From assembly GCF_026163685.1 (NCBI RefSeq), contig NZ_JAOXSR010000012.1, positions 1 to 64,000 on the forward strand: a stretch of 64,000 bases of DNA, given 5' to 3'. The stretch comes from Oerskovia flava. Its GTDB lineage: Bacteria; Actinomycetota; Actinomycetes; Actinomycetales; Cellulomonadaceae. The notes beneath the pieces are model-generated. The model was not told where the DNA came from and did not search any database. It saw only the letters and a list, made by a program, of their open reading frames with translations. Shown piece after piece: positions 4,272-45,989 of the stretch (positions are counted from its first letter, which is position 1; each line of letters starts with the position of its first letter). The translations under genes and the position numbers were made by a program.

Positions 4272-7200
4272 TCAGCAGTCGTGTCCGTCGTGGGGGACGT
4301 GCGACGTCGTGCCGCCGGCCAGGTTCGGTCGGGCGGTGGTGGTGACGGTGGCGATCCCGGCGTCGATCGACGTGGTGCGTGCGGCGAACGACTGGAAGGC
4401 GTTCGCGCCGGGCTTCACGTGGGGGAACGTCTTGGTTCCGTAGGCGGTGCTCAGCGTGATCGAGAGCGGGCTGTCACTGGTGTTCTCCGCGCGTACGACG
4501 ACGTACGTCTTGCCGGCCAGGCACCGGGTGCTGGTCGTGACGTCCACGACAGCACCCTCGTCCGTGTCGAGTCCCACGTAGGGCAGGACGACCGGGCCGC
4601 GGGTCCAGTCCATGGCGGTGGCCTGGTTGGTCGAGGCGGAGATGACGTCGAACGCGTTGCTGTCGGAGGTGTCGGTGTCTCGGGCCTGGTTCGTGTCGGT
4701 CCAGTCACCGGCGCCTCCGCCGCCGCGGTAGGGCCCGACGAAGGCGGGGCAGCCGGTGCCCTGCCAGCACTGGGCGCTGTAGATCGGGCGCACGTTGCCG
4801 ATGCCTTCGCCGTCTTCGGCGGCGCTGAACATGGAGACCTGGTAGCCGGCGGTGCGCAGGTCGACTTCGTCGAGCGCGTCGGCGGGAACCGAGCTGATGA
4901 TCTTGCCGCTGGGGATGACAGTCAGCTGGGCGTCGGCGACCCGGGTGAGGTCGGCGTCGTAGGTTCCGCCGCCGAGGCGTGAGGAGTCGTTGCGTCCGTC
5001 CGCGACGACGGCGTACTGCCACGGACCGGCGGCGGAGGTGTTCGTCCCCGGGAGCAGGGGCGTGCGTGCTCTCGAGAACCCGTCGCTGAGGTAGATGTTC
5101 ACCCGCTGGGTGCTCATGCCGTTGCCGCCCCAGGGGTTGCGGATCTCTCCGGCGGTGGAGACCACGAACCGGACGGTGTCACCGTCCTCGTACACGTCGA
5201 GTCCGGTCAGGTCGAAGCTGCCCGGGTTGAAAGCCCCGTCGGAGGGGTAGAGGTAGCTGCCAGGTCCGTGGTCGTCGCCGGCCGGGTCCGGGATGGTGCC
5301 CACCTTGGTCCCGAAAGCGTAGATCGTGAACCGCTGCACGTTCATCACGCCGTTGTCTCCCACGGCCGTGACACGCACGCGGTTGGTGATCTGGTCGAGA
5401 TCGATGTCTGCGGAGAACTGTCCGCCGGTCAGGGTCGCGGGGGTGTCGGTGCCGTTGACGGAGAGGGTGAGCTCGGCGGCGTCCGTGGTGCCGGTGACGC
5501 GCAGTGTCCTCGTCGAGGTGGTCTGGCCGTCCTGCAGCCCGTCGAGGGTCAGGGTCGGGGCGTCGCCGGTGGGCTGGTCGTCGCTGGTGGCGTTCCAGCT
5601 GTCCCAGGTGTCGGCGTCGAAGTCGAGCCGGCCGAGCTCGTCGGAGGCCCAGTTGTCACCGGCCTTGAGGATCGGGATGCCTCCCACGGTGTAGTTGTGC
5701 AGCAGGAGGCCGTCGCCATCCGTGACCTCGTTGCCGATGGTCACCTTGGTCCCGGTCGGGTCGGTGTACCGCTTGAGCAGGTTGACCTGCCCGGACGCGT
5801 CGAGCTCGTTCCACCCGTCGATGTGCAGCCCGTTGATCTCGACGTTCTGCGTGTTCGACAGGGCGAAGACGCGCAGTGCGCAGTTCGTGGCGCCCTCGAC
5901 GCGGGTGTCGGTGAACCGCATGTTCTTCACCGTCGTGGCCGTGTCGGCGCGGTCGGTAGCGCCCATGTCCTCCCAGTGGGAGGAAGAGTTGAAGATGCAG
6001 GTGTTGTACTTGGTGTCCTTCCAGTACATCCGGTTGTGGATGATGTCGGTGTTGATGACGGTCACGTCTTCGATGTCGCGGGGGGTCCACCCCCACTGGA
6101 TGACGGGGCCGTTCTCGTTCTTCCAGATGACGGTGTTCTCGATGTGCACGTCGGAGTGGTACATCTTCAGGACGTCGTCGTTGGCGTGGAAGAACGTGTT
6201 CCTCATCCGCCCGCCGTCGTAGAGCTCGATCCCGTCGGTCTGCCAGTACCAGGACCCGACCTGCTTGTAGTTCTCCACGTTCATCTGGAACCGCTCGACA
6301 CCTACCTCGGTGTCACCGTCGTGGGCGTACACGACGAACGAGTGGTACGGAGGTTCGTTGATCGTGACGCCCTGGATGTCGAGGGTCTGCTGTGCGTCGG
6401 AGGACTCGAACTGCAGCATCTTCACGCAGGTCACGTGGCAGTTGTCATTGACGTTGTGCTCGTAGCCGTTGGTGGTGTCCGCCTCGTACACGTACTGCTC
6501 GCCGGAGAGGACCCCGAGACCGGTGACCTTGTACTGCGACTGGTTGTCGTGCAGGAACCGGAACGCACCCTTCACGTATGCACCGGGCGCCAGGTACACC
6601 CACCTGACGTTCTCGGGGAGCACGGCGTGGTAGGCGGAACCCATCGAGTAGGTCCCGGGACCGAAGTAGATGATCTCTTCGGTGATGTCATCGAGGTTCG
6701 TCACGGAGCCCGGCTGAGGTCGGTAGATGGACCCGGACTCCTCGGTGGGGATGGTGCGCTCGGCTTCGGCGGCGGACGGCTTGGCGTTGGCAAAGATCAG
6801 CATCGCGTTCTGCGGCTCGGTGCTGATCGCACGGTTGCCTGCCGCGTCGGTAGTGAGCGTGCCGCTGCTCCCGGACATGTCGTTGTATGCGGTGATCAGC
6901 TGCGGCTCGAACTCGACCGAGAACCGGTACCCGTCCTCGCTGAAGGGCACCTTGACACGAATCGTGGACTCGTCGACCAGCTGCTTGTCGAGCGCGAGAT
7001 CGGTGGGGCGGATGGTGACCTGTTCGGCGGACGTGATCGCCTGGCCTGTCTTGAGCGTGACGTCGACCCACACATCGGTGGCGTACTCGAAGCTCGACCA
7101 GCTCATCGTCAGGTCTGCCGAGGAGGAGAATTCGGCGCCGTCCTCCTCGGTGTAGCCGAGCTTGCCGTTGCCGCTCCGGGGGACGCTCGTGTACACGAAC

Positions 7201-7496
7201 GAGTCGTAGGTCGTGTCCGGGTCTGAAGCCGTGGTGACCTTCGTGTCGTAGAACTCTGACTGGCGGACCTGGTGGTCGCTGACCGGGTTCGTGGTGGGGG
7301 CAGCATTGTCGTGCCACCAGGTGTGCAACTGATCGGTGTCCGCCGTACTGGCCTCGGCCGTTGCTGCTGGAGCGGGATCGATCGTGGCCGTAGAGGGTGC
7401 CGCCGAGGAGGGCGTGGCGAGCAGGAGACCGGCGAGCAGGACGGCGATGCTGACGGACGCCGTCCCCGTGGCTCGTGGGGTTCGGGCAGTATGCAT
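4272..7496 (-). CDS. Secreted multidomain GH49 dextranase with glucodextranase-type C-terminal module
   Basis: A second, larger GH49 enzyme of 1074 residues. I place the start at the ATG at 7496 because TAGGAGTGG precedes it and a signal peptide (ending about residue 32, ATPSSAA) follows; the open frame extends further upstream. The catalytic region spans about 55-635 with Asp421 (QTDGIE), Asp440 and Asp441 (ANDDV). It continues with an Ig-like domain (about 646-730) and a module starting IPDPAGDDHGPGSYLYP (about 735-980) that resembles the C-terminal binding module of glucodextranase. A final domain of about 90 residues (CLAGKTYVVVRAENTS) is of unknown function. It is paralogous to the adjacent GH49-CBM13 enzyme, so the two probably divide the work on dextran by different carbohydrate-binding parts. 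Confidence 0.9.
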   Translation of the reverse strand: MHTARTPRATGTASVSIAVLLAGLLLATPSSAAPSTATIDPAPAATAEASTADTDQLHTWWHDNAAPTTNPVSDHQVRQSEFYDTKVTTASDPDTTYDSFVYTSVPRSGNGKLGYTEEDGAEFSSSADLTMSWSSFEYATDVWVDVTLKTGQAITSAEQVTIRPTDLALDKQLVDESTIRVKVPFSEDGYRFSVEFEPQLITAYNDMSGSSGTLTTDAAGNRAISTEPQNAMLIFANAKPSAAEAERTIPTEESGSIYRPQPGSVTNLDDITEEIIYFGPGTYSMGSAYHAVLPENVRWVYLAPGAYVKGAFRFLHDNQSQYKVTGLGVLSGEQYVYEADTTNGYEHNVNDNCHVTCVKMLQFESSDAQQTLDIQGVTINEPPYHSFVVYAHDGDTEVGVERFQMNVENYKQVGSWYWQTDGIELYDGGRMRNTFFHANDDVLKMYHSDVHIENTVIWKNENGPVIQWGWTPRDIEDVTVINTDIIHNRMYWKDTKYNTCIFNSSSHWEDMGATDRADTATTVKNMRFTDTRVEGATNCALRVFALSNTQNVEINGLHIDGWNELDASGQVNLLKRYTDPTGTKVTIGNEVTDGDGLLLHNYTVGGIPILKAGDNWASDELGRLDFDADTWDSWNATSDDQPTGDAPTLTLDGLQDGQTTSTRTLRVTGTTDAAELTLSVNGTDTPATLTGGQFSADIDLDQITNRVRVTAVGDNGVMNVQRFTIYAFGTKVGTIPDPAGDDHGPGSYLYPSDGAFNPGSFDLTGLDVYEDGDTVRFVVSTAGEIRNPWGGNGMSTQRVNIYLSDGFSRARTPLLPGTNTSAAGPWQYAVVADGRNDSSRLGGGTYDADLTRVADAQLTVIPSGKIISSVPADALDEVDLRTAGYQVSMFSAAEDGEGIGNVRPIYSAQCWQGTGCPAFVGPYRGGGGAGDWTDTNQARDTDTSDSNAFDVISASTNQATAMDWTRGPVVLPYVGLDTDEGAVVDVTTSTRCLAGKTYVVVRAENTSDSPLSITLSTAYGTKTFPHVKPGANAFQSFAARTTSIDAGIATVTTTARPNLAGGTTSHVPHDGHDC

Positions 7497-7576
7497 AGTG
7501 GTTCCACTCCTAGGGGGTAGGGCGGTGTGATCGGTCATGCTCCCGGGAGGGAGCCGTGCGCCCGCGATGCGGGCCG

Positions 7577-7612
7577 CCGGTGGTGCGGGCACGGCAATGC
7601 CCGCACCACCGG
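7577..7612 (-). terminator. Long-stem hairpin between ROK and GH49 genes
   Basis: CCGGTGGTGCGGGCA and its complement form a perfect 15-bp stem with the loop CGGCAA. It is the sister of the hairpin at 4107-4142. It lies downstream of the ROK regulator and upstream of the GH49 gene, both on the minus strand, and probably insulates the two transcripts. Confidence 0.65.
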
Positions 7613-7618
7613 TGCTGG

Positions 7619-7651
7619 TCAGGTGTACGTCGGGATGAAGCCGGATGGCAT
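7619..7651 (-). CDS. Possible 10-codon peptide with strong ribosome site
   Basis: ATG at 7651 is preceded by a near-perfect AAGGAGGAGCGC ribosome site and encodes MPSGFIPTYT before a TGA, immediately upstream of the hairpin at 7577-7612. An in-frame ATG at 7699 would give 26 residues. It follows the ROK gene. It may be a small peptide, a translated leader, or what remains of a deleted gene start. I do not recognise the peptide. Confidence 0.3.
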   Translation of the reverse strand: MPSGFIPTYT

Positions 7652-7743
7652 GCGCTCCTCCTTGAGCGGGTCATCGACAGTGATGTGGGTGCGACTCATC
7701 GCCGCGCGTCCCCAGCAGGGGTGCGCGGATCGAGCTCTTCGGG

Positions 7744-8895
7744 TCAGTGTCGGGGCAGGTCGGACAGGACTGTTCGCTGGATGGCCACGGCAGCAGCGCC
7801 GCGACCCCACAGGGTCGGGTCGTCGTCGAGAATGCGCAGGTCGAGGGGTGAGGCCTCGGGCTGCCGTGCCTGGTCGATGCCGGCGCGCAGCCTCTGCTCT
7901 CCCACGCGAGCGAGGCGGATGCCCTCACCGGTGAGCAGGATGCGCTCAGGCTGGGCGATGTTCGCGACGGCGGCGATCAACGTGCCGAAGGCGTGAGCCG
8001 AGCGCCCGATGATCTGGTCAGCCAGCGGGTTGCCGGCTGCAGCGAGATCGAGGACTTCGTCGTAGGTGACGGCGTGTCCAAGGACCATCGCGGCTTGGGT
8101 GTGGATCGCCTCGGTGGACAGCATCGCGTCGGCGCATCCGCGGTGCCCTTCGGGGCAGGAGGGGCCGAGCGGGTCGAGCGGGAAGTGGCCGAGGAGACCA
8201 ATGCCGGAGTCTGGGCCCGTGACCAGCCGGTCGTGGATGACTAGCCCGCCGCCGACGCCGGCACCGATGGTCAGCGCGGCAAAGCTATGCACGTCCCGTC
8301 CGTCGCCGAACCAGTGCTCGGCTTCCATGAGTGCGTCCAGGTCGTTGGCGATCACCGTCGGGTGGCCCGTGCGTTCTGCCAGGAGCAGCCCGAGGTCGAC
8401 ATCGTGCCAGTGAAGGAACGGCGCACGCTGGACGAGCGTGAAGTCGCGCACGGAGCCACCGAGCCCGACGCCGACGGCCGCCGGAGCGTGGCCGACGGTG
8501 AGGTCGGACACGAGCGCAGCAAGGGCATCGACGACCGACGCCGGGTCCTGAGTCGTGATCTCTTGCGCGCTGGTCGCCAAGACATCCGCCCGCAAGTTCG
8601 TCAGCACACCGTAGGCGCGAGAACCCGTGAGCTTGATGCCCACGAACTGCTGTAGATCCGCGTCCACGTCCAGGGGCTGCAGAGGTCTTCCACCCCCCTG
8701 TACGTGTACCTCGCGCACCTCGTGGAGGACACCTGTGTCCAGCAGCGGCTTGGTGATGCGCGTCAGGCTCGGGGTCGACAGATCGAGGCGCCGGGCCAGC
8801 TCGGTGCGCGCGAGCGGGCCGTGGAGCAGCACCTCCAACGCCACGCGGCGGGAGGTGGGCGACAACGGCGTCCAGGGTGATGCGGTGTCCAGCAC
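7744..8895 (-). CDS. ROK family transcriptional regulator
   Basis: A 383-residue repressor with an N-terminal winged helix-turn-helix (about 13-60, ARTELARRLDLSTPSLTRITK) and a ROK sugar-kinase-like domain. It keeps the ATP-site motif GAGVGGG (211-217), the NDLDALMEAE segment and His237. The usual zinc motif CxCGxxGC is reduced to CPEGHRGC (Cys247, Cys254), with the middle cysteine replaced by glutamate. The GTG start at 8895 follows GAGGAGCGCAG. It is divergent from the sugar ABC transporter and upstream of the GH49 genes, so it most likely senses a dextran breakdown product and represses both directions. Confidence 0.9.
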   Translation of the reverse strand: MLDTASPWTPLSPTSRRVALEVLLHGPLARTELARRLDLSTPSLTRITKPLLDTGVLHEVREVHVQGGGRPLQPLDVDADLQQFVGIKLTGSRAYGVLTNLRADVLATSAQEITTQDPASVVDALAALVSDLTVGHAPAAVGVGLGGSVRDFTLVQRAPFLHWHDVDLGLLLAERTGHPTVIANDLDALMEAEHWFGDGRDVHSFAALTIGAGVGGGLVIHDRLVTGPDSGIGLLGHFPLDPLGPSCPEGHRGCADAMLSTEAIHTQAAMVLGHAVTYDEVLDLAAAGNPLADQIIGRSAHAFGTLIAAVANIAQPERILLTGEGIRLARVGEQRLRAGIDQARQPEASPLDLRILDDDPTLWGRGAAAVAIQRTVLSDLPRH

Positions 8896-35217: not shown

Positions 35218-35247
35218 TTGCTGAGAATGAAAATCAGTATGTACAGT
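35218..35247 (+). promoter_or_regulatory. Promoter with Zur-like box before the anchored-repeat operon
   Basis: A -35 like TTGCTG (35218-35223) and a -10 TACAGT (35242-35247) are 18 bases apart. Between them is TGAGAATGAAAATCA (35222-35236), containing TGAAAATCA, the left half of actinobacterial Zur boxes. The right half is degenerate, so the match is only partial. Confidence 0.45.
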
Positions 35248-35326: not shown

Positions 35327-38300
35327 GTGCACTCCCTCGCTCGAACGAGGCCGCTCCTGGCGATCCTGGGCGCGTTCGCCCTGCTCGCCGGCCTAGCGGT
35401 CCCCGCCAGCCTGTCCCCACCCTCAGCGGCTGCCGTCACCACGACGGCCGCCGTGCCCGACCGCGAACGTGTGCTCACGCACGGGCACGTCGACGGCTTC
35501 GAGGTCACGTACGACGCCGGGAGCGGCAAGGTCGTCCTGAGCGTCAAGGACGACACCCGCATCTACGAGCCCGGCTCGGTCTACTGGGCCCCGGAGGTCA
35601 CGACCTTCGCGTACGAGGACGAGCGCTCGACCATGACGCTGCCGCCCGCCGCGGGTCCGTGGGCCTTCCTCGGTGTGCACGGTGAGACCCGGGCGTGGCT
35701 CGGGAGCCAGACCGGCGGCGACCAGGGGTACGCCCCCTGGGTCGGCTGGAGCACCGAGCGGCTCCGCGGGAGCCTCGACGGCACGGGGATCACCCCGGCC
35801 TCGGGCTCACCGGTCTCGCTCGACGTCCGCATCGACGGCCCGGGCGACGTGTTCGCGTTCCAGAACGGGTCGTTCGGCGAGCCGATCAACCGGTACGTCG
35901 ACACCACGACGTCGGCCGGTGGGACCATCCCGGTCACCTCGAACGCGCACGTCCACACGAACTGGATCTTCACGGCCGAGGGCGACTACACGCTCGTCGT
36001 CACGCCGTCGCTCGCGACGACCGAGCACGGCACCATCGCCGGTGACCCCGCGACGTACCACGTCCGCATCGGGGAGCGCGCGCCCGAGCCGGTGACCACC
36101 TCGGTGTCGGTGACGGCCGACGCGCCCGAGCACGTCGAGGGTGACACGGCGACGTTCACCGCGGCGCAGGAACCCCAGACGGAGCTGTCGACGTACCGCT
36201 GGGAGATCGCGCCCGCGGGCAGCGACGAGTTCGCCCCGGTCGAGGGTGCGACGTCGGACACCTACGAGCGTGGGATGACCCTGGCCGACGACGGCGCCCG
36301 TGTGCGGGCGGTCCTGCTCGACGGCGAGCGCGCCGCGGGCACGTCCGATCCGGTCACGCTCAGCGTGGCCCAGGCGGCGCCGGCGTACGTCCTGACGATC
36401 GAGGGCCTGGAGGACGGGTACATCTCGGGTGACGACCTCCGTCTCGACGCGGTCCTCGAGCCCGCGGCGGACGGCGTGACGTACCGGTGGGAGCGCCGCG
36501 ACGCACAGGACACGGACTTCACCCCCGTCGACCCGGCCGTCGACGGCCCGACGTTCTCGACGACGGTGACCGCCGACCTGGAGGGGACGGCGTTCCGCGT
36601 CGTCGCGCTGGACACCGAGGGCGCCGAGCTCGCGACGTCGGGGCCGGTCGAGGTCGGCGACGTCGGCGACGAGCCGGGCCCCGACCCCGAGCCGGTGACC
36701 ACCAGGGTCACGGTGTCGGCCGACGCGGCCGAGCACGTCGAGGGCGAGACCGCGACCTTCACCGCGTCGCAGCAGCCGCGGACGGAGCTGTCGACGTACC
36801 GCTGGGAGATCGCCCGCTCGGGCAACACGTTCACCCCGGTCAAGGGGGCGACGGCGGCGACGTACGACCGGAAGCTGACCCTGGCCGACGACGGTGCTCG
36901 GGTGCGCGCGGTCCTGCTGGACGGCGAGCGTGCCGCGGGCACCTCCGCTCCGGTCACGCTCGCAGTCTCCGCGAAGCCCGCGCCGCAGCCGACGCCCGGC
37001 GAGTCCGAGCCGAACCGCGAGTTCGTGCTCTCGCGGGGCCACGTCGACGGCTTCGAGGTCACGTACGACGACGACTCGGACGACCTCACGCTGTCGATCA
37101 AGGACGACACCCGGATCTACGCACCGGGCTCGACCTACCGCTCGCCCGAGGACGTGACCATCGCGTACGAGGACGAGCGAGGCGTGCAGCGGCTCCCGAC
37201 CGCCGACGGCGTGTGGTCGTTCCTCGGTGCGCACGGGGGCAAGGACGCGTGGATCGGGTCGCAGACCGGCGCCGACCAGGAGTACCTGCCGTGGGTCGGC
37301 TGGAGCACCGAGCGTCTGCTCCCGTCGCTCGCGGGCTCCGGGCTCACCCCCGCGTCGGGCTCGCCGGTGACGCTGAACGTCACCGTCGAGGGCCCGGGCG
37401 AGGTCTTCACCTTCCAGAACGACTCCTTCGGCAACCCGATCAACCGCTACCTCGACACCACCAGGTCCGCGAACGGCAGCATCCCCATCACGGCGAACGC
37501 CCACGTCCACACGAACTGGGTCTTCACCGCCGCTGGGGACTACCACCTCACGGTGACTCCGAGCCTCAAGACGACCGCAGGCCGGACGATCTCGGGCGAG
37601 CCTGCGGACTACCACGTCCGGGTCGGCGCCTACACGCCGCCGTGGGAGCCGCTCACGGACGAGGAGCTGACGGAGGGCAACCGGGGCGACCTGACGCTCG
37701 ACGCCTCCTCGTACGAGCTCGGTGACCTCGCCGAGGCGTCGTCTCCGTCGTTCACCGACGGCCAGGAGCTGGTCGCGTACGTCTACTCCGAGCCCACGAG
37801 CGCCGGGACGGCCTCCGCGCAGGCAGGTGCCGTGCTCGTGACGATCCCGACCTCCGTCGGGACGGGGGCCCACAAGCTCGCCGTGTACGACTCCGCGAGC
37901 GGCGAGCTCGTCGGGTGGGCGCCGTTCACGGCGACCGCGGCCGGTGGGCCGGGCTCCGGCGGTGGCACGGGCGGCGGTACCGGCGGTGGCATCGGTGGCG
38001 GTGCCGGAGCGGGCGGGGGAGCGGGCGGCGTCGGCTCGCAGCTCCCCGGTGCCGCCGGGTCGGCAGCGCCCGACCCGTGCGTGCCCACCCCGGTCACGAG
38101 CCAGGTGAAGTCGGCGGCCCCGGGCGGGATCTCCGACGGTCACTTCGACTTCGGCTCGCGCGTCGAGGACGGCGAGCTCGTCGCCTCCGTGAAGGACGAC
38201 CGCAAGCAGCCCGCGAGCTGGGTCGCACCGAGCTCGCTGACGTTCCGTCTCGGCGACGCGTCGAAGGACGAGGTGCCCGCAGGCGGGGACTTCTCGTTCC

Positions 38301-38881
38301 TCGGCGCTGCCGGTACGCCGATCTGGTCGATCGGCCAGGTCCAGGAGTCCGGTGTGCCGTGGCTCGGGTGGAACACCCAGCACCCGACGCTCGTCGAGGC
38401 CGCGACCGGACCGGTCACCTACACGCTCGACGCCGTCGACGGTCCCGGAAAGCTGGGCGTCTACGCGACCGGCAACTTCGGCGGCGTCGGCGCGAAGTAC
38501 TTCGGGACCATGGACGGCTTCCCGCGGAGCACCTCCGTCCCGCTCAACCAGCACGTCCACGGCAACTGGGCGTTCACCGAGCAGGGCGTCTACAAGGTGA
38601 CCTTCACCCTGTCCGTCCCGGTCGCGGGCGGCAGGACCCTCTCGGACACGGCGACCCTGACGTTCTCGGTGGGGGACAGCTCCGGCACCACCACGAAGAC
38701 GACGTACGTCGGCAAGACGGCGTCCGGTGAGAGCTGTGAGCTGAGCGCGGAGCAGCGGGCGGCGCTCGCGACGACCGGCGCCGACCCCCTGTCGGCGCTC
38801 GCGCTCGGCGCGCTGCTGCTCGTCACGGGCAGCGCGATGTACGGGGTCTCGCGACGGCGTCGGACCGGGTCGGCCGTCTGA
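35327..38881 (+). CDS. Cell wall-anchored HVHxNW-repeat protein of the anchored-repeat ABC system
   Basis: A 1184-residue surface protein. After a signal peptide (to about residue 36) come a first anchored-repeat domain (about 48-248, HVHTNW at 208-213), three Ig-like repeats (about 255-347, 352-444 and 457-548, the first and third nearly identical), a second repeat domain (about 566-767, HVHTNW at 726-731), a Gly-rich spacer (about 873-905) and a third repeat domain (about 935-1116, HVHGNW at 1076-1081). It ends with LATTG (1147-1151), a hydrophobic segment and an Arg tail, the LAxTG signal for sortase E-type anchoring. The GTG start follows AGAGGAA. These repeats occur only with this ABC transporter family and probably bind metal at the surface; that function is inferred. 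Confidence 0.9.
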   Translation: MHSLARTRPLLAILGAFALLAGLAVPASLSPPSAAAVTTTAAVPDRERVLTHGHVDGFEVTYDAGSGKVVLSVKDDTRIYEPGSVYWAPEVTTFAYEDERSTMTLPPAAGPWAFLGVHGETRAWLGSQTGGDQGYAPWVGWSTERLRGSLDGTGITPASGSPVSLDVRIDGPGDVFAFQNGSFGEPINRYVDTTTSAGGTIPVTSNAHVHTNWIFTAEGDYTLVVTPSLATTEHGTIAGDPATYHVRIGERAPEPVTTSVSVTADAPEHVEGDTATFTAAQEPQTELSTYRWEIAPAGSDEFAPVEGATSDTYERGMTLADDGARVRAVLLDGERAAGTSDPVTLSVAQAAPAYVLTIEGLEDGYISGDDLRLDAVLEPAADGVTYRWERRDAQDTDFTPVDPAVDGPTFSTTVTADLEGTAFRVVALDTEGAELATSGPVEVGDVGDEPGPDPEPVTTRVTVSADAAEHVEGETATFTASQQPRTELSTYRWEIARSGNTFTPVKGATAATYDRKLTLADDGARVRAVLLDGERAAGTSAPVTLAVSAKPAPQPTPGESEPNREFVLSRGHVDGFEVTYDDDSDDLTLSIKDDTRIYAPGSTYRSPEDVTIAYEDERGVQRLPTADGVWSFLGAHGGKDAWIGSQTGADQEYLPWVGWSTERLLPSLAGSGLTPASGSPVTLNVTVEGPGEVFTFQNDSFGNPINRYLDTTRSANGSIPITANAHVHTNWVFTAAGDYHLTVTPSLKTTAGRTISGEPADYHVRVGAYTPPWEPLTDEELTEGNRGDLTLDASSYELGDLAEASSPSFTDGQELVAYVYSEPTSAGTASAQAGAVLVTIPTSVGTGAHKLAVYDSASGELVGWAPFTATAAGGPGSGGGTGGGTGGGIGGGAGAGGGAGGVGSQLPGAAGSAAPDPCVPTPVTSQVKSAAPGGISDGHFDFGSRVEDGELVASVKDDRKQPASWVAPSSLTFRLGDASKDEVPAGGDFSFLGAAGTPIWSIGQVQESGVPWLGWNTQHPTLVEAATGPVTYTLDAVDGPGKLGVYATGNFGGVGAKYFGTMDGFPRSTSVPLNQHVHGNWAFTEQGVYKVTFTLSVPVAGGRTLSDTATLTFSVGDSSGTTTKTTYVGKTASGESCELSAEQRAALATTGADPLSALALGALLLVTGSAMYGVSRRRRTGSAV

Positions 38882-38883
38882 TC

Positions 38884-40455
38884 GTGGCGGTCCCCCCTCC
38901 CGCCGACCGGCGGCGGCACCTGTGCGGTGCCGCCGCCGGCCTGGCGGCCCTGACCCTCGCGGGCTGCGCGCTCGCCACGCCCGGTGACTCCGGCGACTCC
39001 GACGGCATCAGCGTCGTCGCGACGACCGGGGTCCTCGCCGACCTGGCGCGCAACGTCGTCGGCGACCGTGCCACGGTGACCTCGCTCGTCCCCGACGGCG
39101 GCGACCCGCACTCGTACGAGCCGTCCCTGCGCGACGTGCGCGACGTCGTCTACGCCGACGTCGCCTTCAGCAACTACATGCTGCTGGAGGAGCACAACAT
39201 CATCAAGATGCTCGACGCCAACCTGCCCGACGGCGTCCCGAACGTCTCGCTCGCGGAGTCCGCGGTGAAGTACGCCGCCGAGATCATCCCGCTCGTCGAG
39301 AACGTCAACCTCGACACGATCTGGCTCGGCCTGGCCGTCAGCGGCACCGGGGAGCAGCACGGCGCGACGCGATCCTCGGACGTCCTGCTGCGCGCCACCG
39401 ACCTCGACGGTCCCGGTCAGCTCACGGGCTATCTCACCGAGACGTTCGGGCAGCCCCGCATCTACTTCGACTCTGCGGACGGGTTCGACGGGTCGGACGT
39501 CGTGACGCTGCCCACCGACGCCCACACGCACATGAGCTGGACCTTCTCGGAACCCGGTGTCTACCGCCTCACGCTGGCGGCCGAGCTCCTGCCGACACCC
39601 GAGGCGGACCCCGTCGCGATGGGCTCGTCGACGGTGACCTTCGCCGTCGGCATCGACCCGTACTCGGTCTCGGGCGCCCAGGGCGCCGAGGTGCTCGACG
39701 GCGGCCACGCCGACCTGTCGGTGCAGCTCGACGCGGGCGAGATCGTCGTCGCCTCGGACTCGTCGGACGACGTCGGCGGTCACCACCACCTGCACGACCC
39801 GGACGAGACCGTGATCTCGATCCCCAACAAGGCGCTGGCGCCTGTCCCGGCCGGGCAGGACTTCCGCTTCCTCGGCCGGGCGGGCGAGCAGATCTACCAG
39901 CTGCCCCAGGCGGTGCTGGGCAAGCACGTGCACGGGGAGATCGACCCGCACCTGTGGCAGGACGTGCGCAACGCCCAGGCGTACGTCGAGATCATCCGCG
40001 ACACGCTCGTCGCGGCCGACCCCGAGGGCGCCGACGAGTACCGGGCCAACGCCGACGCCTACCTGCGGACGCTCGAGGAGACCGACGCCTACGTCCAGGC
40101 GACGATCGCCGAGATCCCCCGCGAGCGGCGGTACCTCGTCACGACGCACGACGCGTTCGCGTACCTCGGCGCCGCGTACGACCTCGACATCGCGGGGTTC
40201 GTGACCCCGAACCCGGCGACCGAGCCCAGCGTGGCCGAGCGCGCCAAGCTCACGCAGACCGTCCGCACCCTCGAGGTCCCGGCCGTCTTCCTCGAGCCCA
40301 ACCTCGCCGCGCGGTCCTCGGTGCTCACGGAGGTCGCGAAGGAGAACGGTGTGCAGGTGTGCCCGATCTACTCCGACGCCTTCGACGCCGAGGTCACCAC
40401 CTACGTCGAGATGATGCGCGCGAACGCCGACTCGTTGCGCCGCTGCCTCTCCTGA
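38884..40455 (+). CDS. Anchored-repeat ABC transporter substrate-binding lipoprotein (ZnuA-like)
   Basis: A 523-residue lipoprotein (lipobox LAGC, Cys28). The N-terminal part is a ZnuA/MntA-type cluster A-I binding protein (TTGVLADLARNVVGD, GGDPHSYEPS). It is interrupted at about residue 130 by repeat-like insertions (DAHTHMSWTF, GGHADLSVQLDAG and HHHLH) and resumes at HGEIDPHLWQD. Likely metal ligands are His in DPHSYEPS, His in HGEIDPH, His in TTHDAF and Asp in YSDAF. It starts at GTG 38884, two bases after the upstream stop. The metal is most likely zinc or manganese. Confidence 0.9.
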   Translation: MAVPPPADRRRHLCGAAAGLAALTLAGCALATPGDSGDSDGISVVATTGVLADLARNVVGDRATVTSLVPDGGDPHSYEPSLRDVRDVVYADVAFSNYMLLEEHNIIKMLDANLPDGVPNVSLAESAVKYAAEIIPLVENVNLDTIWLGLAVSGTGEQHGATRSSDVLLRATDLDGPGQLTGYLTETFGQPRIYFDSADGFDGSDVVTLPTDAHTHMSWTFSEPGVYRLTLAAELLPTPEADPVAMGSSTVTFAVGIDPYSVSGAQGAEVLDGGHADLSVQLDAGEIVVASDSSDDVGGHHHLHDPDETVISIPNKALAPVPAGQDFRFLGRAGEQIYQLPQAVLGKHVHGEIDPHLWQDVRNAQAYVEIIRDTLVAADPEGADEYRANADAYLRTLEETDAYVQATIAEIPRERRYLVTTHDAFAYLGAAYDLDIAGFVTPNPATEPSVAERAKLTQTVRTLEVPAVFLEPNLAARSSVLTEVAKENGVQVCPIYSDAFDAEVTTYVEMMRANADSLRRCLS

Positions 40456-40478
40456 ACCTCCACCACCGAAGGACAGAC

Positions 40479-41498
40479 ATGACACCCCGCACCCTGCGGC
40501 TCCTCGCACCGCTCGTGCTGGCCGGGACGCTCGCCGCAGCCCCTGCCACCGCGACCGCCGTCCACACCGACACCGACCCCGGCCTCGACCAGAGAGTCGG
40601 TGCCGACGAGGAGACGGTCGACGGCCGCGAGGTCGTGGCCCAGGGCCACGTCGACATCGGACCACGCTTCCTCGACGGGACGTGGACGCTCCAGGCGCGC
40701 GACGACCGCCAGGTCCCGCCGGTGTGGCGCTCCACCGAGGAGACGGTCGTGCACGTCGTCGACGAGTCCGTCCTGCCCGCCCCGGAGAGCCCTGACTTCG
40801 CGTTCCTCGGCGTCGAGCCCGAGACGCCGCTGTGGGTCGTACCGCAGGTGCAGAACCAGGAGGTGACCTGGCTCGGGTGGAACACCCAGGACCCGGAGGT
40901 CACCGAACGGATCGACCGCGGTGCGACGCTACGGCTCGACGGCGTGGACGGACCGGGCGCGTTCTTCCTCTTCCTCCAGGAGGGTGTCACCGGTCCGCCG
41001 AACGTGCTGTGGAACTCCGGCGAGGCCTATCCACAGGACCTGTGGATGGAGGTCAACACGCACGTCCACGCGAACTGGGTCTTCACCGAGCCCGGTGTGT
41101 ACACGTTCGACGTCACGGTCCTCGCGGACCTCACCGACGGCTCGCAGGTGGAGGACTCCGGCGTCCTGCGGTTCGCGGTCGGCACCGAGACGGACCCGCA
41201 GACCGCGTTCGCCGCAGCCGCGACGGAGGAGGAACCGGCCGACGAGTCGCCGGAGACACAGGACGCGGGAGCCGACGACACGGCCGAGAGCCAGGCGCCG
41301 CAGGCCGTCGCCACCGAACCCGCCACCGATCCGGCCGACGCCGACGGCTCGCAGGACTCCGCCGTCTCGACCGTCGTGCTCTGGGGTGGCATCGCGCTCC
41401 TCGTCCTGCTCGCGGCCGTCGTCGCGACGGTCGTGCGCGGCCGCCGCGCGCGAGCGCTCGCCGAGCTCGAGGCCGACCAGGCCGGGGGCGGGTCGTGA
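40479..41498 (+). CDS. Membrane-anchored HVHxNW-repeat protein
   Basis: A 339-residue protein with a signal peptide (to about residue 27), one anchored-repeat domain (about 45-230, with GHVDIG and HVHANW), an acidic Pro/Ala-rich stalk (about 235-290) and a C-terminal helix with a basic tail (RGRRARAL), so it is held in the membrane rather than the wall. GAAGGAC precedes the ATG. It may hand metal from the wall protein to the binding lipoprotein; this is inference. The ATPase gene overlaps its stop (GTGA). Confidence 0.88.
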   Translation: MTPRTLRLLAPLVLAGTLAAAPATATAVHTDTDPGLDQRVGADEETVDGREVVAQGHVDIGPRFLDGTWTLQARDDRQVPPVWRSTEETVVHVVDESVLPAPESPDFAFLGVEPETPLWVVPQVQNQEVTWLGWNTQDPEVTERIDRGATLRLDGVDGPGAFFLFLQEGVTGPPNVLWNSGEAYPQDLWMEVNTHVHANWVFTEPGVYTFDVTVLADLTDGSQVEDSGVLRFAVGTETDPQTAFAAAATEEEPADESPETQDAGADDTAESQAPQAVATEPATDPADADGSQDSAVSTVVLWGGIALLVLLAAVVATVVRGRRARALAELEADQAGGGS

Positions 41499-42337
41499 CG
41501 ACGTCCGCGACCACCGCCACGCCCGACCGGGCGGTGGCTTCCCCGGCCGAGGCGCCCTCGCCGGAGGCCGCGGTCCTGCGCGTGCGGGACGTCGCGGTCG
41601 AGCTCGGCGGCCGACTGGTCCTGCACGACGCGAACCTCGACGTGCGGGCCGGTGAGCTCGTCGGGCTCATCGGGCCCAACGGGGCGGGGAAGACGACGCT
41701 GCTGCGCTCGATCCTCGGTCTCGTGCGCCGCCGGTCGGGCGAGGTGCTGGTGGACGGTGCCGCTGCGCGCGGCGCCTCGACCTCGATGGGCTACGTGCCC
41801 CAGCGGCACGAGTTCGCGTGGGACTTCCCGATCTCGGTCGAGGACGCGGTGATGTCCGGCCGCGTCCGGCGGATCGGGTGGCTGCGCCGGGCCGGTGTCG
41901 CCGACTACCGCGCCACGCGCGAGGCGCTCGACCGCGTCCGCATGACCCATCTGCGCAAGCGTCCTGTCGGCGAGCTGTCCGGTGGTCAGCGCCAGCGGGT
42001 CCTCGTGGCCCGCGCCCTCGCGCTCGGTCCGGGGGTGCTGTTGCTCGACGAGCCGTTCACCGGCCTCGACGTACCCACGCAGGAGCTCCTCACCGACCTC
42101 TTCGCCGAGCTGGCGCGCGAGGACGGCAAGGCCGTCCTCATGACCACGCACGACCTCGTGGCGGCGATGCACGCCTGCACGCGCATCTGCCTGCTCAACC
42201 GCACCGTCGTCGCGACGGGCACCCCTGCCGAGCTCGACGACCCGGCCCTGTGGATGCGGGCCTTCGGCATCTCGCAGACCTCGCCGCTGCTCTCGGCGCT
42301 CGGCCTCTCCACGACCGACCGGAAGGCGGACGCGTGA
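41495..42337 (+). CDS. Anchored-repeat ABC transporter ATP-binding protein
   Basis: A 280-residue metal-type ATPase (ZnuC/MntB group): Walker A GPNGAGKTT, Q-loop YVPQRHEFAWDFP, signature LSGGQRQR, Walker B VLLLDEPFTGLD, switch TTHD. An Ala-rich N-terminal extension precedes the domain. The GTG start at 41495 overlaps the upstream stop by 4 bases, and the permease start overlaps the end of this gene likewise. Confidence 0.92.
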   Translation: MTTSATTATPDRAVASPAEAPSPEAAVLRVRDVAVELGGRLVLHDANLDVRAGELVGLIGPNGAGKTTLLRSILGLVRRRSGEVLVDGAAARGASTSMGYVPQRHEFAWDFPISVEDAVMSGRVRRIGWLRRAGVADYRATREALDRVRMTHLRKRPVGELSGGQRQRVLVARALALGPGVLLLDEPFTGLDVPTQELLTDLFAELAREDGKAVLMTTHDLVAAMHACTRICLLNRTVVATGTPAELDDPALWMRAFGISQTSPLLSALGLSTTDRKADA

Positions 42338-43275
42338 TCTCCCTCGGCGAGTTCATCCAGGACTTGCTCAACCCCGACCTCGCGTTCCTGCCCAAGGCGC
42401 TGCTCGTCGCCGTCATGTCGAGCGTGGTCTGCGGCGTCATCGGGTGCCACGTCGTCCTGCGCGGCATGGCCTTCATCGGTGACGCCGTCGCGCACGCCGT
42501 GTTCCCCGGGCTCGCCATCGCGTTCGTGCTCCAGGGCTCGCTCGTGATCGGGGGAGCGGTGGCGGGCGTCGTCACGGCGGTCCTCGTCGCGGTGTTCTCC
42601 CAGAACCGCCGCCTCAAGGAGGACTCCATCATCGGCGTCTTCTTCGTCGCTGCCTTCGCGCTCGGCATCGTCATCATCTCCACAGCACCCGGCTACGCGG
42701 GCTCGCTGCAGCAGTTCCTGTTCGGGTCGATCACCGGCATCCCCGACGAGGACGTCTACGTCGTCGCGATCGCCGGGGCGATCCTGCTGCTGGTCGCCTT
42801 CCTCCTGCACAAGGAGTTCGTCGCGGTCAGCCTCGACCGGGAGATGGCCCGCTCGGCGGGGCTGCCGGTCTTCTGGCTCGACCTCGCGCTCTACGTCCTG
42901 GTGACGATCGCGATCGTCCTGTCCGTGCAGACGATCGGGAACATCCTGGTCCTCGCGCTCCTCATCACGCCGGCCGCGGCCGCGCGCCTGCTCACCGACC
43001 GGCTCGGACTGATGATGTTCCTCGCGCCGGTGATCGGGGGAGCGTCCGCGCTCGTCGGTCTCTACCTGTCGTGGAGCCTCGACCTGCCCGCGGGCGGCAC
43101 GATCGTGCTCGTGGCGACCGCCGTCTTCCTCGTGGCCTGGTTCTTCGCCCCGCGCCACGGACTGCTCGCACGACGGCGCCGGCACGGCTCGGCCCGCACC
43201 CCCGAGCAGGAGGCGGAGAACCAGGGCGTGGCGGCCGGGGAGCGGGCCACGCTCGGCGGGGTCCCGACGGGCTGA
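42334..43275 (+). CDS. Anchored-repeat ABC transporter permease
   Basis: A 313-residue ABC-3 family (ZnuB/MntC-like) permease with eight or so hydrophobic segments. It includes GCHVVLRGMAFIGDAVAHAVFPGLA, characteristic of metal permeases, and the typical SLDREMARSAGLP loop. The GTG at 42334 overlaps the ATPase stop (GTGA). It completes a zinc or manganese importer with the ATPase and binding lipoprotein. Confidence 0.92.
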   Translation: MISLGEFIQDLLNPDLAFLPKALLVAVMSSVVCGVIGCHVVLRGMAFIGDAVAHAVFPGLAIAFVLQGSLVIGGAVAGVVTAVLVAVFSQNRRLKEDSIIGVFFVAAFALGIVIISTAPGYAGSLQQFLFGSITGIPDEDVYVVAIAGAILLLVAFLLHKEFVAVSLDREMARSAGLPVFWLDLALYVLVTIAIVLSVQTIGNILVLALLITPAAAARLLTDRLGLMMFLAPVIGGASALVGLYLSWSLDLPAGGTIVLVATAVFLVAWFFAPRHGLLARRRRHGSARTPEQEAENQGVAAGERATLGGVPTG

Positions 43276-43400
43276 GCCGCAGGCATCCTGTCACGACCGG
43301 ACCTCCGGTGCGCCCGTACCTCGTGCGGCCCACCACCGTGCGTCCCAGGTCGTCCTCGCGGACGACTCGGGCGTCCCCGCCGTCGGGCAGGATGGTCGCC

Positions 43401-44153
43401 GTGACCGACGCCGTCCCGCCCTCCTCGTCCGCGCCCTCCGCCGCCAGGACCGTGGGTCCCTCGACGGTCGACCTCCTCGTCCTCTGGGCTGGTATCCCGG
43501 CGCTCGGCGCCGGGCTCGCGTACGGGGTGCTGCGCCTCGCGGGCTGGTACACCGGTCTGCCGTGGGCACCCTTCCAAGGACCCGCGCGTCTCGTCGACGA
43601 GCTGCTCGGGGAGCGCGGAGCCCTCGGGGTCGCGATCGCCCTCGGGCTCGGGGCGCTCGCGGGCGCGGTGTTCGCGGGCTTCGCGCGGCGAGACATCGCG
43701 GTGGTGACGGTCGCACCCGAGCGGGCGAGCGTCGTCCTGCACGGCACGGCGACGGAGCTCGACCGGGCGGAGGTGACCTCCGTCTACGTGGACCGCAAGG
43801 CGCTCGTCGTCCTCGGAGGTCCGGACGGTGCCGGTGAGCTCGCGCACGCGGTCACGGAGCTGGGGACACCTCGCCTCGCCGACGCGTTCCGTGCCCAGGG
43901 CTGGCCGTGGTGCGACGAGGACCCGTACGCGGGCGCGCTGCGCCGCTGGGTCCCCGGCGACGAGAGCCTCCCGGCGAGCGCCGACGCGGTGCTGCGGGCT
44001 CGTGCGGTGATGCTCGAGGCGGGCACGTCCGACGACGTCGCCGACCTGCGCCGTGAGCTCTCACGGCTCGGCGTCGTGGTGCGTGACGTCGACAAGAAGC
44101 AGTACTGGCGCCCTGCGCGCCCGGGAGGGGTGCGGGGCGCCGGTACCGCGTGA
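43401..44153 (+). CDS. YqeB-like membrane protein
   Basis: A 250-residue protein with two predicted N-terminal helices (about 22-45 and 68-90) followed by a cytoplasmic PH-like domain (DIAVVTVAPERASVVLHG) and a C-terminal helical part (RRELSRLGVVVRDVDKKQYWR), matching the plan of Bacillus YqeB-family proteins. The start is uncertain: GTG 43401 (AGGATGG upstream) or ATG 43392. Its relation to the metal island is only positional. Confidence 0.78.
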   Translation: MTDAVPPSSSAPSAARTVGPSTVDLLVLWAGIPALGAGLAYGVLRLAGWYTGLPWAPFQGPARLVDELLGERGALGVAIALGLGALAGAVFAGFARRDIAVVTVAPERASVVLHGTATELDRAEVTSVYVDRKALVVLGGPDGAGELAHAVTELGTPRLADAFRAQGWPWCDEDPYAGALRRWVPGDESLPASADAVLRARAVMLEAGTSDDVADLRRELSRLGVVVRDVDKKQYWRPARPGGVRGAGTA

Positions 44154-44165
44154 CGGAACCGCGGC

Positions 44166-44459
44166 TCAGTGCTCGTCGTAGTGGTCCTCGTGGGCCGCGT
44201 GCTTGTGCCCGTCGTGCACGTAGTCGACGTGGTCGCCGTGGTCGACGGACTCGTGCCCGCATTCCGGGCCGTGGGTGTGCTCGTCGGACGAGTGCTCGGC
44301 CTTCGCCTCGTGCTCGTCGTAGTGGTCGCCGTGCACGGCGTGGCGGTGGGTGCCGTGCAGGAAGTCGACGTGGTCGCCGTGCTGCACGGACTCGTGCCCG
44401 CAGCCGTCGCCGTGGGTGTGCTCCGCGACGCTGTGCTCTGCGTGGGTGTCGGTGGTCAT
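44166..44459 (-). CDS. Histidine-rich repeat protein, probable zinc buffer
   Basis: A 97-residue soluble protein in which 25 residues are histidine. It is built from two repeats of about 45 residues, each carrying EHTHGxxCGHESVxHGDHVDxxH and HxHAxHxDHYDEH. Such proteins in actinobacteria are often misnamed zinc transporter permeases, but there is no membrane segment. The start overlaps the stop of the SmtB-type sensor by 4 bases. High histidine and one cysteine per repeat suggest binding or delivery of zinc; that function is inferred. Confidence 0.88.
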   Translation of the reverse strand: MTTDTHAEHSVAEHTHGDGCGHESVQHGDHVDFLHGTHRHAVHGDHYDEHEAKAEHSSDEHTHGPECGHESVDHGDHVDYVHDGHKHAAHEDHYDEH

Positions 44460-44809
44460 CGTCCGGTCTCCTCCGTGTCGTGGTCTTGCGCGGCGCGCAC
44501 CGCGGGAACCTCCTGGACGTGCGCGAGAGCATCGGCGACGACGTGGGACACGTGCGTGTCCGCGACGCTGTAGACCACCTCCCGGCCGGTGCGGGTCGCG
44601 GTCACCAGGCCGCCCTGTCGAAGGGTCCGGAGGTGCTGGGAGACCAGCGGCTGGGACAGCCCGGTGCTCTCCGTCAGCGCCCCCACGGTCCGGGGCTCGT
44701 CACCCACGAGGTGCAGCAGCCTCAGTCGTGACTCGTTGCCGAGGATCCTGAAGAGCTGCGCGGCATCCGCGAGGCCTTGCTCTGTACGCACAGCAGCAGT
44801 CCACCACAC
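44456..44809 (-). CDS. SmtB/ArsR-type zinc sensor
   Basis: A 117-residue (GTG 44809) or 111-residue (GTG 44791) ArsR/SmtB repressor with recognition helix SQPLVSQHLRTLRQGG. The C-terminal helix contains D84-x-H86-x10-H97-x2-E100, exactly the alpha5 zinc site of SmtB and CzrA. It should release DNA when zinc is abundant, so it may switch on the His-rich protein that overlaps it by 4 bases. An AT-rich palindrome overlaps its start region. Confidence 0.9.
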   Translation of the reverse strand: MWWTAAVRTEQGLADAAQLFRILGNESRLRLLHLVGDEPRTVGALTESTGLSQPLVSQHLRTLRQGGLVTATRTGREVVYSVADTHVSHVVADALAHVQEVPAVRAAQDHDTEETGR

Positions 44810-44832
44810 ATATAAACATATTGCAATATTAC
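44804..44832. promoter_or_regulatory. AT-rich operator of the SmtB-type sensor
   Basis: ACATAT-AA-ACATAT followed by the palindrome ATATTGCAATAT (44818-44829) makes a sharply AT-rich island in GC-rich DNA directly upstream of the sensor gene. ArsR/SmtB operators are typically AT-rich imperfect dyads of this size. Confidence 0.6.
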
Positions 44833-44869
44833 TATGTCTTGATGATGGTTCTCAGATGCCTCTCCGTCG

Positions 44870-45967
44870 CTACGCGTGCGCGGCATCGCCGACGAGGTGA
44901 CGGTGGACCGCGGCGACGTCCGCCGCGGCGACCGGCTCCCCGGGCCTGACGGCGCAGTCGTCGAGCCGTGCCCGCAGGCGAGGCAGGTCCATGCCTGCTC
45001 CGATGCACACGAGCCGGCTCGTCCGGCCCTCGGGTGCCCGTCGGGTACGGCTGAAGCGGACCTGCCGGCCGACCACGTGCGCGACGACGAGGTCGTCACC
45101 CTCGGGCGTGGCGAGCCGCAGGACGCCCTTGGCGCGGAACATCCCGGCCGGCCGGTCGTCGAAGAGGGCCGCGACTCGCCCCGGGTGCAGCGGGACGTCG
45201 CTCACGAGCTCGAGCGAGTCGTACTGCCCGTGCACGTGCGGGCCGTGGTCCACGCCCTCGTCGTCCCGCCCATGAGCCTCGTCGCCACCGTGAGCCTCGT
45301 CGTCACCACGGTCGTCGGTCCACGCGGCCGCGACGCCGAGCGTCGGCTGCCAGGGTCCGCGCCGGCGGGGTGGCGCGTCGAGCAGGAGGAGCGGGTCCAC
45401 GCGCCCCTCGATCGTGCGCACCAGCGGTGCGTCGGGGTGGAGCGCGCGGCAGCGGCCCTCGACCTGGTCGATCGTCCCCGCCGCCGCGTCCGCCTTGTTC
45501 AGCACCACGACGTCCGCCGTCGCGAGCCGCCTGGCCACCTCGGGATGCCGGTCGAAGGTGGTGAGGGCCTCGGACGCGTCGACGACCTGGACGAGCGCCG
45601 CCACGTGCGCGCCGGGGTGGATCGCGACGCGCCGGGCGAGGGTGGCCGGGTCCGCCAGGCCGCTGGCCTCGAGCACGACGACGTCCACGTGGGCGGTCGG
45701 TCCCGTGAGCCGGTCGAGCATCGCGGGGAGCTCGTCGTCCTCGGCCGCGCAGCACAGGCAGCCGCCCGTGGAGCTCTCGATCGACTCGGCGCCGCCGGTG
45801 ATCAGCAGCGGGTCGATGCCCGTCCGACCGAAGTCGTTGACGATGACCGCGATCCGCGAGTCCCCGGCGCTCGCGAGGAGATGGTTGACCAGTGTCGTCT
45901 TCCCCGCGCCGAGAAAGCCGGCGACGACCACCACCGGGACGGTGCGCGGCGTGGTGGGGCGAGCCAT
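44870..45967 (-). CDS. CobW/COG0523 family GTPase
   Basis: A 365-residue P-loop GTPase of the metal-chaperone family: Walker A GFLGAGKT (17-24), metal-binding CLCC (70-73), base-recognition NKAD, and a linker rich in His and Asp (about 213-240, HGGDEAHGRDDEGVDHGPHVHG). The C-terminal CobW domain follows. These proteins (ZagA, YeiR, ZNG1-type) insert or mobilise zinc when zinc is scarce. It starts at ATG 45967 next to a Zur-like box and is head-to-head with the SmtB operator region. Confidence 0.92.
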   Translation of the reverse strand: MARPTTPRTVPVVVVAGFLGAGKTTLVNHLLASAGDSRIAVIVNDFGRTGIDPLLITGGAESIESSTGGCLCCAAEDDELPAMLDRLTGPTAHVDVVVLEASGLADPATLARRVAIHPGAHVAALVQVVDASEALTTFDRHPEVARRLATADVVVLNKADAAAGTIDQVEGRCRALHPDAPLVRTIEGRVDPLLLLDAPPRRRGPWQPTLGVAAAWTDDRGDDEAHGGDEAHGRDDEGVDHGPHVHGQYDSLELVSDVPLHPGRVAALFDDRPAGMFRAKGVLRLATPEGDDLVVAHVVGRQVRFSRTRRAPEGRTSRLVCIGAGMDLPRLRARLDDCAVRPGEPVAAADVAAVHRHLVGDAAHA

Positions 45968-45974
45968 CGGTCGA

Positions 45975-45989
45975 TGATAGTGCTTCTCA
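45975..45989 (-). promoter_or_regulatory. Zur-like box TGA-N9-TCA at the COG0523 gene
   Basis: TGATAGTGCTTCTCA shares TGA...TCA and 10 of 15 positions with actinobacterial Zur sites by eye. It ends 8 bases upstream of the GTPase start, overlapping the 3' end of the LysR gene. The match is partial, so this is tentative. Confidence 0.35.

Follow-up and report, generated by a model that had tools for sequence, protein, structure and literature searches.

A predicted Zur-controlled zinc acquisition locus around an anchored-repeat ABC importer in Oerskovia flava

The stretch of DNA analysed here (called the window) comprises positions 1 to 64,000 of contig NZ_JAOXSR010000012.1 of Oerskovia flava, which has a genome of 4.1 Mb. 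Between positions 35,327 and 45,967 it contains eight genes that a first-pass annotation, made from the letters alone, had described as a zinc or manganese import island. Sequence and comparative analyses indicate that this block is very probably a Zur-controlled zinc acquisition regulon centered on an anchored-repeat ATP-binding cassette (ABC) importer of the ZnuAECB-FG kind found in Corynebacterium diphtheriae. The core importer is therefore of a kind already known; new are a circularly permuted domain in its binding protein, the invariance of this domain, and the putative two-sensor promoter of a gene encoding a histidine-rich (His-rich) protein. The nearest named relatives of the importer locus belong to Cellulosimicrobium. 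Elsewhere the genome encodes three further ZnuA proteins, two Fur-family genes and two sortases.

Genes of the block and their recurrence

The list of open reading frames and the profile searches agreed with the annotation on the position and family of all eight genes. The plus strand carries, in this order, genes for a wall protein with three repeats, a ZnuA-type lipoprotein, a membrane protein with one repeat, the ATPase, the permease and a YqeB-like protein. On the minus strand a COG0523 gene is followed by arsR, which overlaps the gene of the 97-residue His-rich protein, in two transcription units. The core proteins exceeded the curated cut-offs of the anchored-repeat families (TIGR03769-TIGR03773 and NF038134), from which the core does not differ: the wall protein scored 346 bits (TIGR03773, cut-off 190), the substrate-binding lipoprotein (38884..40455, plus strand) 744 bits (TIGR03772, cut-off 350), the ATPase (41492..42337, plus strand) 363 bits (TIGR03771, cut-off 269) and the permease (42334..43275, plus strand) 471 bits (TIGR03770, cut-off 297).

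The CmrA/ZnuG-like wall protein (35327..38881, plus strand) contains three copies of the NF038134 repeat in normal order, at 35471..36067 (109 bits, profile positions 1-183), 37025..37624 (129 bits, positions 1-184) and 38129..38671 (162 bits, positions 2-184), each with one HVD or HFD pair and one HVH pair. Its C-terminus shows the features of a sortase substrate, namely a LAxTG-type signal (LATTG, 38765..38779), a hydrophobic stretch and a positively charged RRRR tail, and the two sortase genes lie elsewhere in the genome. The ZnuE-like membrane protein (40479..41498, plus strand) carries a single repeat (NF038134, 187 bits) and, in its AlphaFold model, a C-terminal helix at residues 297-336; His57, Asp59, His195 and His197 are invariant across 43 sequences. 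The earlier description of an anchored-repeat importer stands, with wall and membrane repeat proteins as its predicted zinc-binding partners. The repeat domain had no solved relative by sequence, and the membrane-protein model gave no Foldseek match at E <= 0.001, so the repeat fold cannot be assigned to a known zinc domain. The COG0523 (CobW-type) GTPase, Zrg/YciC-like and encoded at 44870..45967 on the minus strand, matched both the N- and the C-terminal CobW domains (PF02492, 132 bits; PF07683, 59 bits), and its CxCC motif reads GGCLCC.

Among 80 named related loci, 78 contain the core of binding protein, membrane repeat protein, ATPase and permease, an arrangement that by this recurrence lies far beyond chance; nearly all have extra repeat proteins, and the core was found likewise in 18 loci of the importer family. 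The remaining genes are much rarer near the importer (COG0523 in 10/80, the His-rich gene in 9/80 and arsR in 7/80 loci). The co-occurrence that had been proposed as a check on all eight genes thus holds for the core, and the idea of one conserved cassette was rejected, as only the importer core and the repeat proteins recur. By sequence, the eight genes are one predicted regulon in O. flava, yet they are no conserved eight-gene unit. A ninth gene within the block (43359-44153, plus strand) was rejected as a part of the system since it recurs at none of the related loci. Located between the importer and the His-rich gene, it encodes a YqeB-like bacterial pleckstrin homology (PH) domain fused to a domain resembling the anticodon-binding domain of cysteinyl-tRNA ligase.

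Zur boxes and the promoter of the arsR/His-rich pair

A Zur matrix trained only on boxes near importer genes of other genomes was applied to the 63,986 positions of the window. The best site was TGAGAATGAAAATCA (35222..35236, plus strand; score 19.1, chance expectation 0.07) before the wall-protein/importer operon, followed by TGAGAACCATCATCA (44840..44854, minus strand; 17.9), 13 bp upstream of the predicted arsR -35 element, and TGAGAAGCACTATCA (45975..45989, minus strand; 14.9), 7 bp before the COG0523 start. Apart from a match that overlaps the first site (12.6), the next position scored 9.0. The top three sites precede precisely the three transcription units of the block, and a simpler pattern search returned the same three sites with 0.18 expected. 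Zur-like boxes were also present near the wall-protein or binding-protein genes in 37/80 related loci, compared to a mean of 0.43 obtained with a shuffled consensus, and the 18 importer loci gave 78 matches versus none in a Markov control. The view of the block as one linked unit holds in so far as the best Zur sites head its units and make it zinc-responsive by sequence; it has to be qualified for the ninth gene inside and for the last three genes, which lie on the opposite strand.

In Promicromonospora and related genera (loci L065, L068, L077, L079 and L080), Zur boxes occur as pairs about 36-40 bp apart before wall-protein genes, with near-constant spacing. Outside the window, the O. flava genome has similar Zur-like sites ahead of a second znuA, ahead of an importer of the FecCD type and close to another repeat protein. 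The second znuA, with its own box, lies at G000:C18:70298-73476 with a Fur-family gene about 2 kb downstream, probably forming a znuABC-zur operon. A strong box, TGAGAATGAGTATCA (G000:C12:212159-212173; locus L081, 14160), is located 10 bp before a FecCD-type permease gene, which is followed by genes for a periplasmic binding protein and an ATPase and may belong to a zincophore importer. The third site, AGAGAATCAATATCA, lies upstream of the gene for another large secreted protein (G000:C12:205935-206468; locus L081, gene at about 5434-8610, minus strand), which has a single choice-of-anchor M repeat together with a bacterial immunoglobulin-like domain and is a CmrA-like candidate.

The sensor gene of the pair (44456..44809, minus strand) encodes an SmtB-type ArsR protein, as the annotation had stated (NF033788, 82 bits). 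Its alpha-5 zinc motif DTHVSHVVADALAHVQE is complete (D-x-H-x10-H-x2-E) and is present in nearly all paired relatives. The GTG at 44791, downstream of the annotated start, is probably the true start, because the annotated one overlaps the predicted -10 element (TGGACT, 44798..44803, minus strand), which lies at a spacing of 17 bp from the predicted -35 element TTGCAA (44821..44826, minus strand). The latter is part of a conserved AT-rich inverted repeat, a probable ArsR operator, that precedes arsR in 20 distinct promoters, a set collected through similarity to one protein in which near-identical promoters were counted once. In 11 of these 20 the best Zur-matrix match in the 150 bp upstream is positioned 13-14 bp from the TTGCAA element (chance about 0.3; p about 1e-15), and in four more a weaker or second box is seen by eye at that distance.

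The second gene of the pair (44166..44459, minus strand; here called hisR) encodes a probable zinc buffer of 97 residues, 25 of them histidines and two cysteines, with two similar His-rich repeats. It matched no curated family in NCBIfam and Pfam profile searches, and with only two cysteines it is not a Cys-rich chain like the bacterial metallothionein SmtA. Relatives, often located directly after an arsR sensor gene, were found in 80 of the 297 genomes of the order. Co-occurrence of the importer with the His-rich gene was seen in 25 of these 297 genomes versus 12.4 expected (p = 1.5e-5, a statistic that ignores phylogeny), and in 7 of the 25 the His-rich gene lies within about 7 kb of the binding-protein gene. 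The pair is also carried by a conjugative plasmid of the gammaproteobacterium Pantoea ananatis, and a partial relative on a Citricoccus plasmid is annotated as 'zinc transporter permease', a label with which both its size and its sequence disagree. Titles from a literature search revealed no obvious earlier description of the pair, an absence that is no proof.

An SmtB-type sensor normally opens its promoter at zinc excess. The His-rich protein therefore fits zinc relief or excess more than a starvation relay, and the earlier placement of this protein as a cytoplasmic buffer inside such a relay is not supported, relief or excess being its more likely setting.

Two alternative explanations bear on these promoters. 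If the eight genes had come together by chance, an ordinary importer having landed next to a COG0523 gene and an arsR/His-rich pair with which it has no connection, the low frequencies of the latter three genes near related importers and the existence of His-rich relatives in genomes devoid of the importer would be expected; the three best Zur-like sites of the window, one per transcription unit, and the proximity of the His-rich gene to the binding-protein gene in 7/25 genomes having both, far above chance, make this explanation very improbable. The direction of Zur control at the arsR/His-rich unit is a closer matter. Zinc-loaded Zur might repress the unit, giving expression in a narrow range as for smtB-zur of Mycobacterium smegmatis, which is under both Zur and SmtB control (PMC7174638), and the His-rich protein would then be a store or chaperone of the starvation phase. 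A dimer bound 13 bp above the -35 element could still hinder the polymerase. The box, however, lies entirely upstream of the predicted -35 element, at 13-14 bp in 11/20 promoters, and Zur of Streptomyces coelicolor acts as an activator of zitB through a box placed 8 nt above the -35 element (PMC5472717). Because of the fixed box position and the zitB precedent, and despite the dual control in M. smegmatis, activation of the buffer at sufficient zinc is slightly favored, leaving repression as a less probable yet serious competitor.

The binding protein and its permuted repeat

The Pfam ZnuA match of the binding protein is split into two pieces, one on each side of an insert that separates the first ligand of the ZnuA pocket from the second; the lipobox cysteine C28 is invariant. 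The annotation had correctly recognized the surface repeat in this insert, described there as simply inserted. Measured against the NF038134 profile of 184 positions, the second half of the repeat comes first (39298..39648, plus strand; profile positions 74-184, 59 bits; HxH with His214 and His216) and the first half second (39691..39912, plus strand; positions 1-73, 37 bits; HxD with His275 and Asp277). Using a profile built from the membrane repeat protein, the swapped order was observed in 116/119 binding proteins, and the normal order in 390 copies from other proteins of the same loci. The AlphaFold models of the two proteins show the same strands one for one, rotated, and each strand of the intact domain occurs once in the insert. 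The mean predicted local distance difference test (pLDDT) value was 84 for the membrane protein and 78.5 for the binding protein, with most of the insert (most of residues 147-340) near or above 90; the predicted TM-score (pTM) of the binding-protein model was 0.60, i.e. its overall confidence is moderate. On the grounds of sequence and models the insert is a circular permutation of the surface repeat, which probably arose when tandem repeats of the kind seen in wall proteins were duplicated and trimmed.

PMC12445094 reports that the two motifs of C. diphtheriae ZnuA are in reversed order; no description of a circular permutation or of its conservation was found in the parts consulted. The side-by-side placement of the HxD and HxH residues assumed here is based on that source and on the strand order.

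His214, His216, His275 and Asp277 of the insert are invariant in 119/119 binding proteins. According to Foldseek and residue inspection, the binding protein has the fold of cluster A-I and, in its classical pocket (His76-His356-His422-Asp498), the His-His-His-Asp/Glu ligands of that cluster; the pocket is altered in six of the 119. Among these, the protein of locus L078 has lost all four pocket ligands and that of L076 three, in operons that are both complete; as both keep the permuted HxH/HxD domain, they represent natural separation-of-function cases. The other changes have to be read with care (L218 is possibly a broken gene, L084 differs at a single aligned position, and L075 and L086 are possibly the same species). 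By sequence, this pattern suggests that the permuted domain rather than the pocket is under the strongest selection in the pocket-altered lineages, and the C. diphtheriae znuA mutant, whose phenotype is weak, fits this picture.

Two further alternatives concern the nature of the insert and the choice of metal. The two halves might be degenerate partial repeats rather than a single permuted domain, in line with their scores below those of the intact repeats and with the moderate overall confidence of the model. The split at profile positions 73/74, with each strand of the intact domain represented once, the high pLDDT values across most of residues 147-340 and the invariant HxH and HxD pairs in 119 sequences argue strongly for the permutation and render this explanation highly unlikely. 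Regarding the metal, the importer could serve mainly manganese, or manganese and zinc, with the zinc-type sensor as an unrelated neighbor: the best PDB profile match of the binding protein is the manganese protein MntA, the NCBIfam MntC profile gave 173 bits (under its cut-off), and the pocket ligands of the family alone do not settle the metal. The third ligand, however, is the His of AztC rather than the Glu of MntA, Zur boxes are found ahead of the operon in the window and in many relatives, and the homologous system, which zinc and Zur repress, supports growth at low zinc (PMC6711530, PMC12445094). Manganese as the main metal was rejected on these grounds, and a manganese or mixed role appears very improbable. 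Of the two metals left open by the annotation, zinc is the best supported, on the strength of the four pocket ligands (His-His-His-Asp), of the Zur boxes and of what is known about the homologue.

Relation to known systems and proposed mechanism

The metal and mechanism of this transporter family, described in the annotation as poorly studied, have been addressed in C. diphtheriae between 2019 and 2025 (PMC6711530, PMC12445094). There, zinc acts through Zur to repress znuAECB, znuF, znuG, CmrA and CmrA2 (PMC6711530); cells short of zinc require ZnuE, the HxD/HxH domains have been linked to zinc binding, and the wall proteins ZnuF and ZnuG are dispensable in the presence of the importer and harm growth in its absence (PMC12445094). 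The families and roles encoded by znuAECB and znuF-znuG (dip0438-dip0445) match those of the O. flava locus. Both species have a ZnuA with reversed HxD/HxH motifs, a ZnuE, an ATPase, a permease and Zur control (in O. flava as predicted boxes only, one of them before the operon); in O. flava the HxD/HxH pairs occur in the wall, membrane and, reversed, binding protein. The wall proteins of C. diphtheriae have one to three such domains, as is the type in O. flava, and its regulon includes the Zur-regulated GTP-binding protein Zrg, the counterpart of which is the COG0523 GTPase. O. flava differs in that the gene of the three-repeat wall protein comes first in the operon and that the COG0523 gene and the arsR/His-rich pair adjoin the importer.

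Other known systems resemble parts of the locus. In its fold (TM-score to target 0.78 with AztC, 5w57) and its His-His-His-Asp pocket the binding protein agrees with AztC/ZnuA/TroA (cluster A-I), but in place of their short and frequently His-rich loop it has a permuted zinc domain of 190 residues, and some of its relatives are devoid of the pocket altogether. As in the streptococcal Pht and AdcAII proteins, in which surface proteins with His motifs are thought to hand zinc to a binding protein (PMC12445094), repeat proteins lie at the surface; the sequence motif is unrelated, and the O. flava binding protein itself shares the surface domain. The arsR/His-rich promoter resembles that of S. coelicolor zitB in having a Zur box entirely upstream of the -35 element of a gene acting in zinc excess (PMC5472717), but zitB encodes an exporter and has an 8-nt gap, whereas in O. 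flava the product is a His-rich protein, the -35 is covered by a sensor element and the gap measures 13-14 nt. The gene pair itself recalls another arrangement. In Synechococcus smtB-smtA an ArsR-family zinc sensor is paired with a small metal-binding protein, the Cys-rich metallothionein SmtA; in O. flava the partner is His-rich with two cysteines and a Zur box is added.

By sequence and analogy, the following sequence of events is the favored reading. At low zinc, Zur would leave the boxes at 35222 and 45975, leading to production of the wall protein, lipoprotein, membrane repeat protein, ATPase, permease and COG0523 GTPase. The wall protein, with its three HxD/HxH zinc domains, would collect zinc at the surface and the membrane repeat protein would offer it to the transporter, while the permuted domain of the lipoprotein may allow zinc to be swapped with the other repeats and delivered to the pocket or the permease. 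The arsR/His-rich pair would form the opposite arm: its SmtB-type repressor should release in zinc excess, and the Zur box, placed as for an activator, may turn on the cytoplasmic His-rich buffer once zinc returns.

Several observations weigh against this interpretation. The second half of the 35222 box is weak (AAATCA), the arsR box at 44840 departs from the consensus at two places, and the co-occurrence of the arsR/His-rich pair with the importer is uncorrected for shared ancestry. In C. diphtheriae, the effect of deleting znuA was modest, the wall proteins proved unnecessary and zinc still caused a shift in His-to-Ala mutants (PMC12445094), so that neither a role in transfer nor even the precise site of zinc binding is proven. 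The simple relay from wall to membrane to cytoplasm suggested by the annotation is accordingly at odds with the C. diphtheriae genetics, in which ZnuE is required, ZnuA is of minor importance and the wall proteins can be spared as long as the importer is present but are inhibitory without it.

We offer one combined proposal, as a doubtful possibility that goes beyond the zinc regulon: that the permuted repeat is the working zinc-receiving site of this family of binding proteins, with zinc handed on between like domains from wall to membrane to binding protein and the pocket partly dispensable, and that, in addition, arsR-hisR is an undescribed two-sensor module in which zinc-loaded Zur activates and zinc-released SmtB de-represses the His-rich buffer. 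If true, the arsR-hisR buffer would protect the zinc-starved cell when zinc returns.

The core of the locus adds one more example to a zinc system that is already being studied in a pathogen, and the comparative results give the field specific tests. The 'reversed' motif of ZnuA now reads as a complete surface domain in permuted form that is kept throughout the family, even where the classical pocket is gone, which fits the surprise that ZnuE matters more than ZnuA in the experiments on C. diphtheriae. The arsR-hisR promoter, in which the Zur box keeps a constant distance from the sensor element, is a candidate for the coupling of starvation and excess control in actinobacteria, and a hypothesis of function is now available for a widespread family of His-rich genes.

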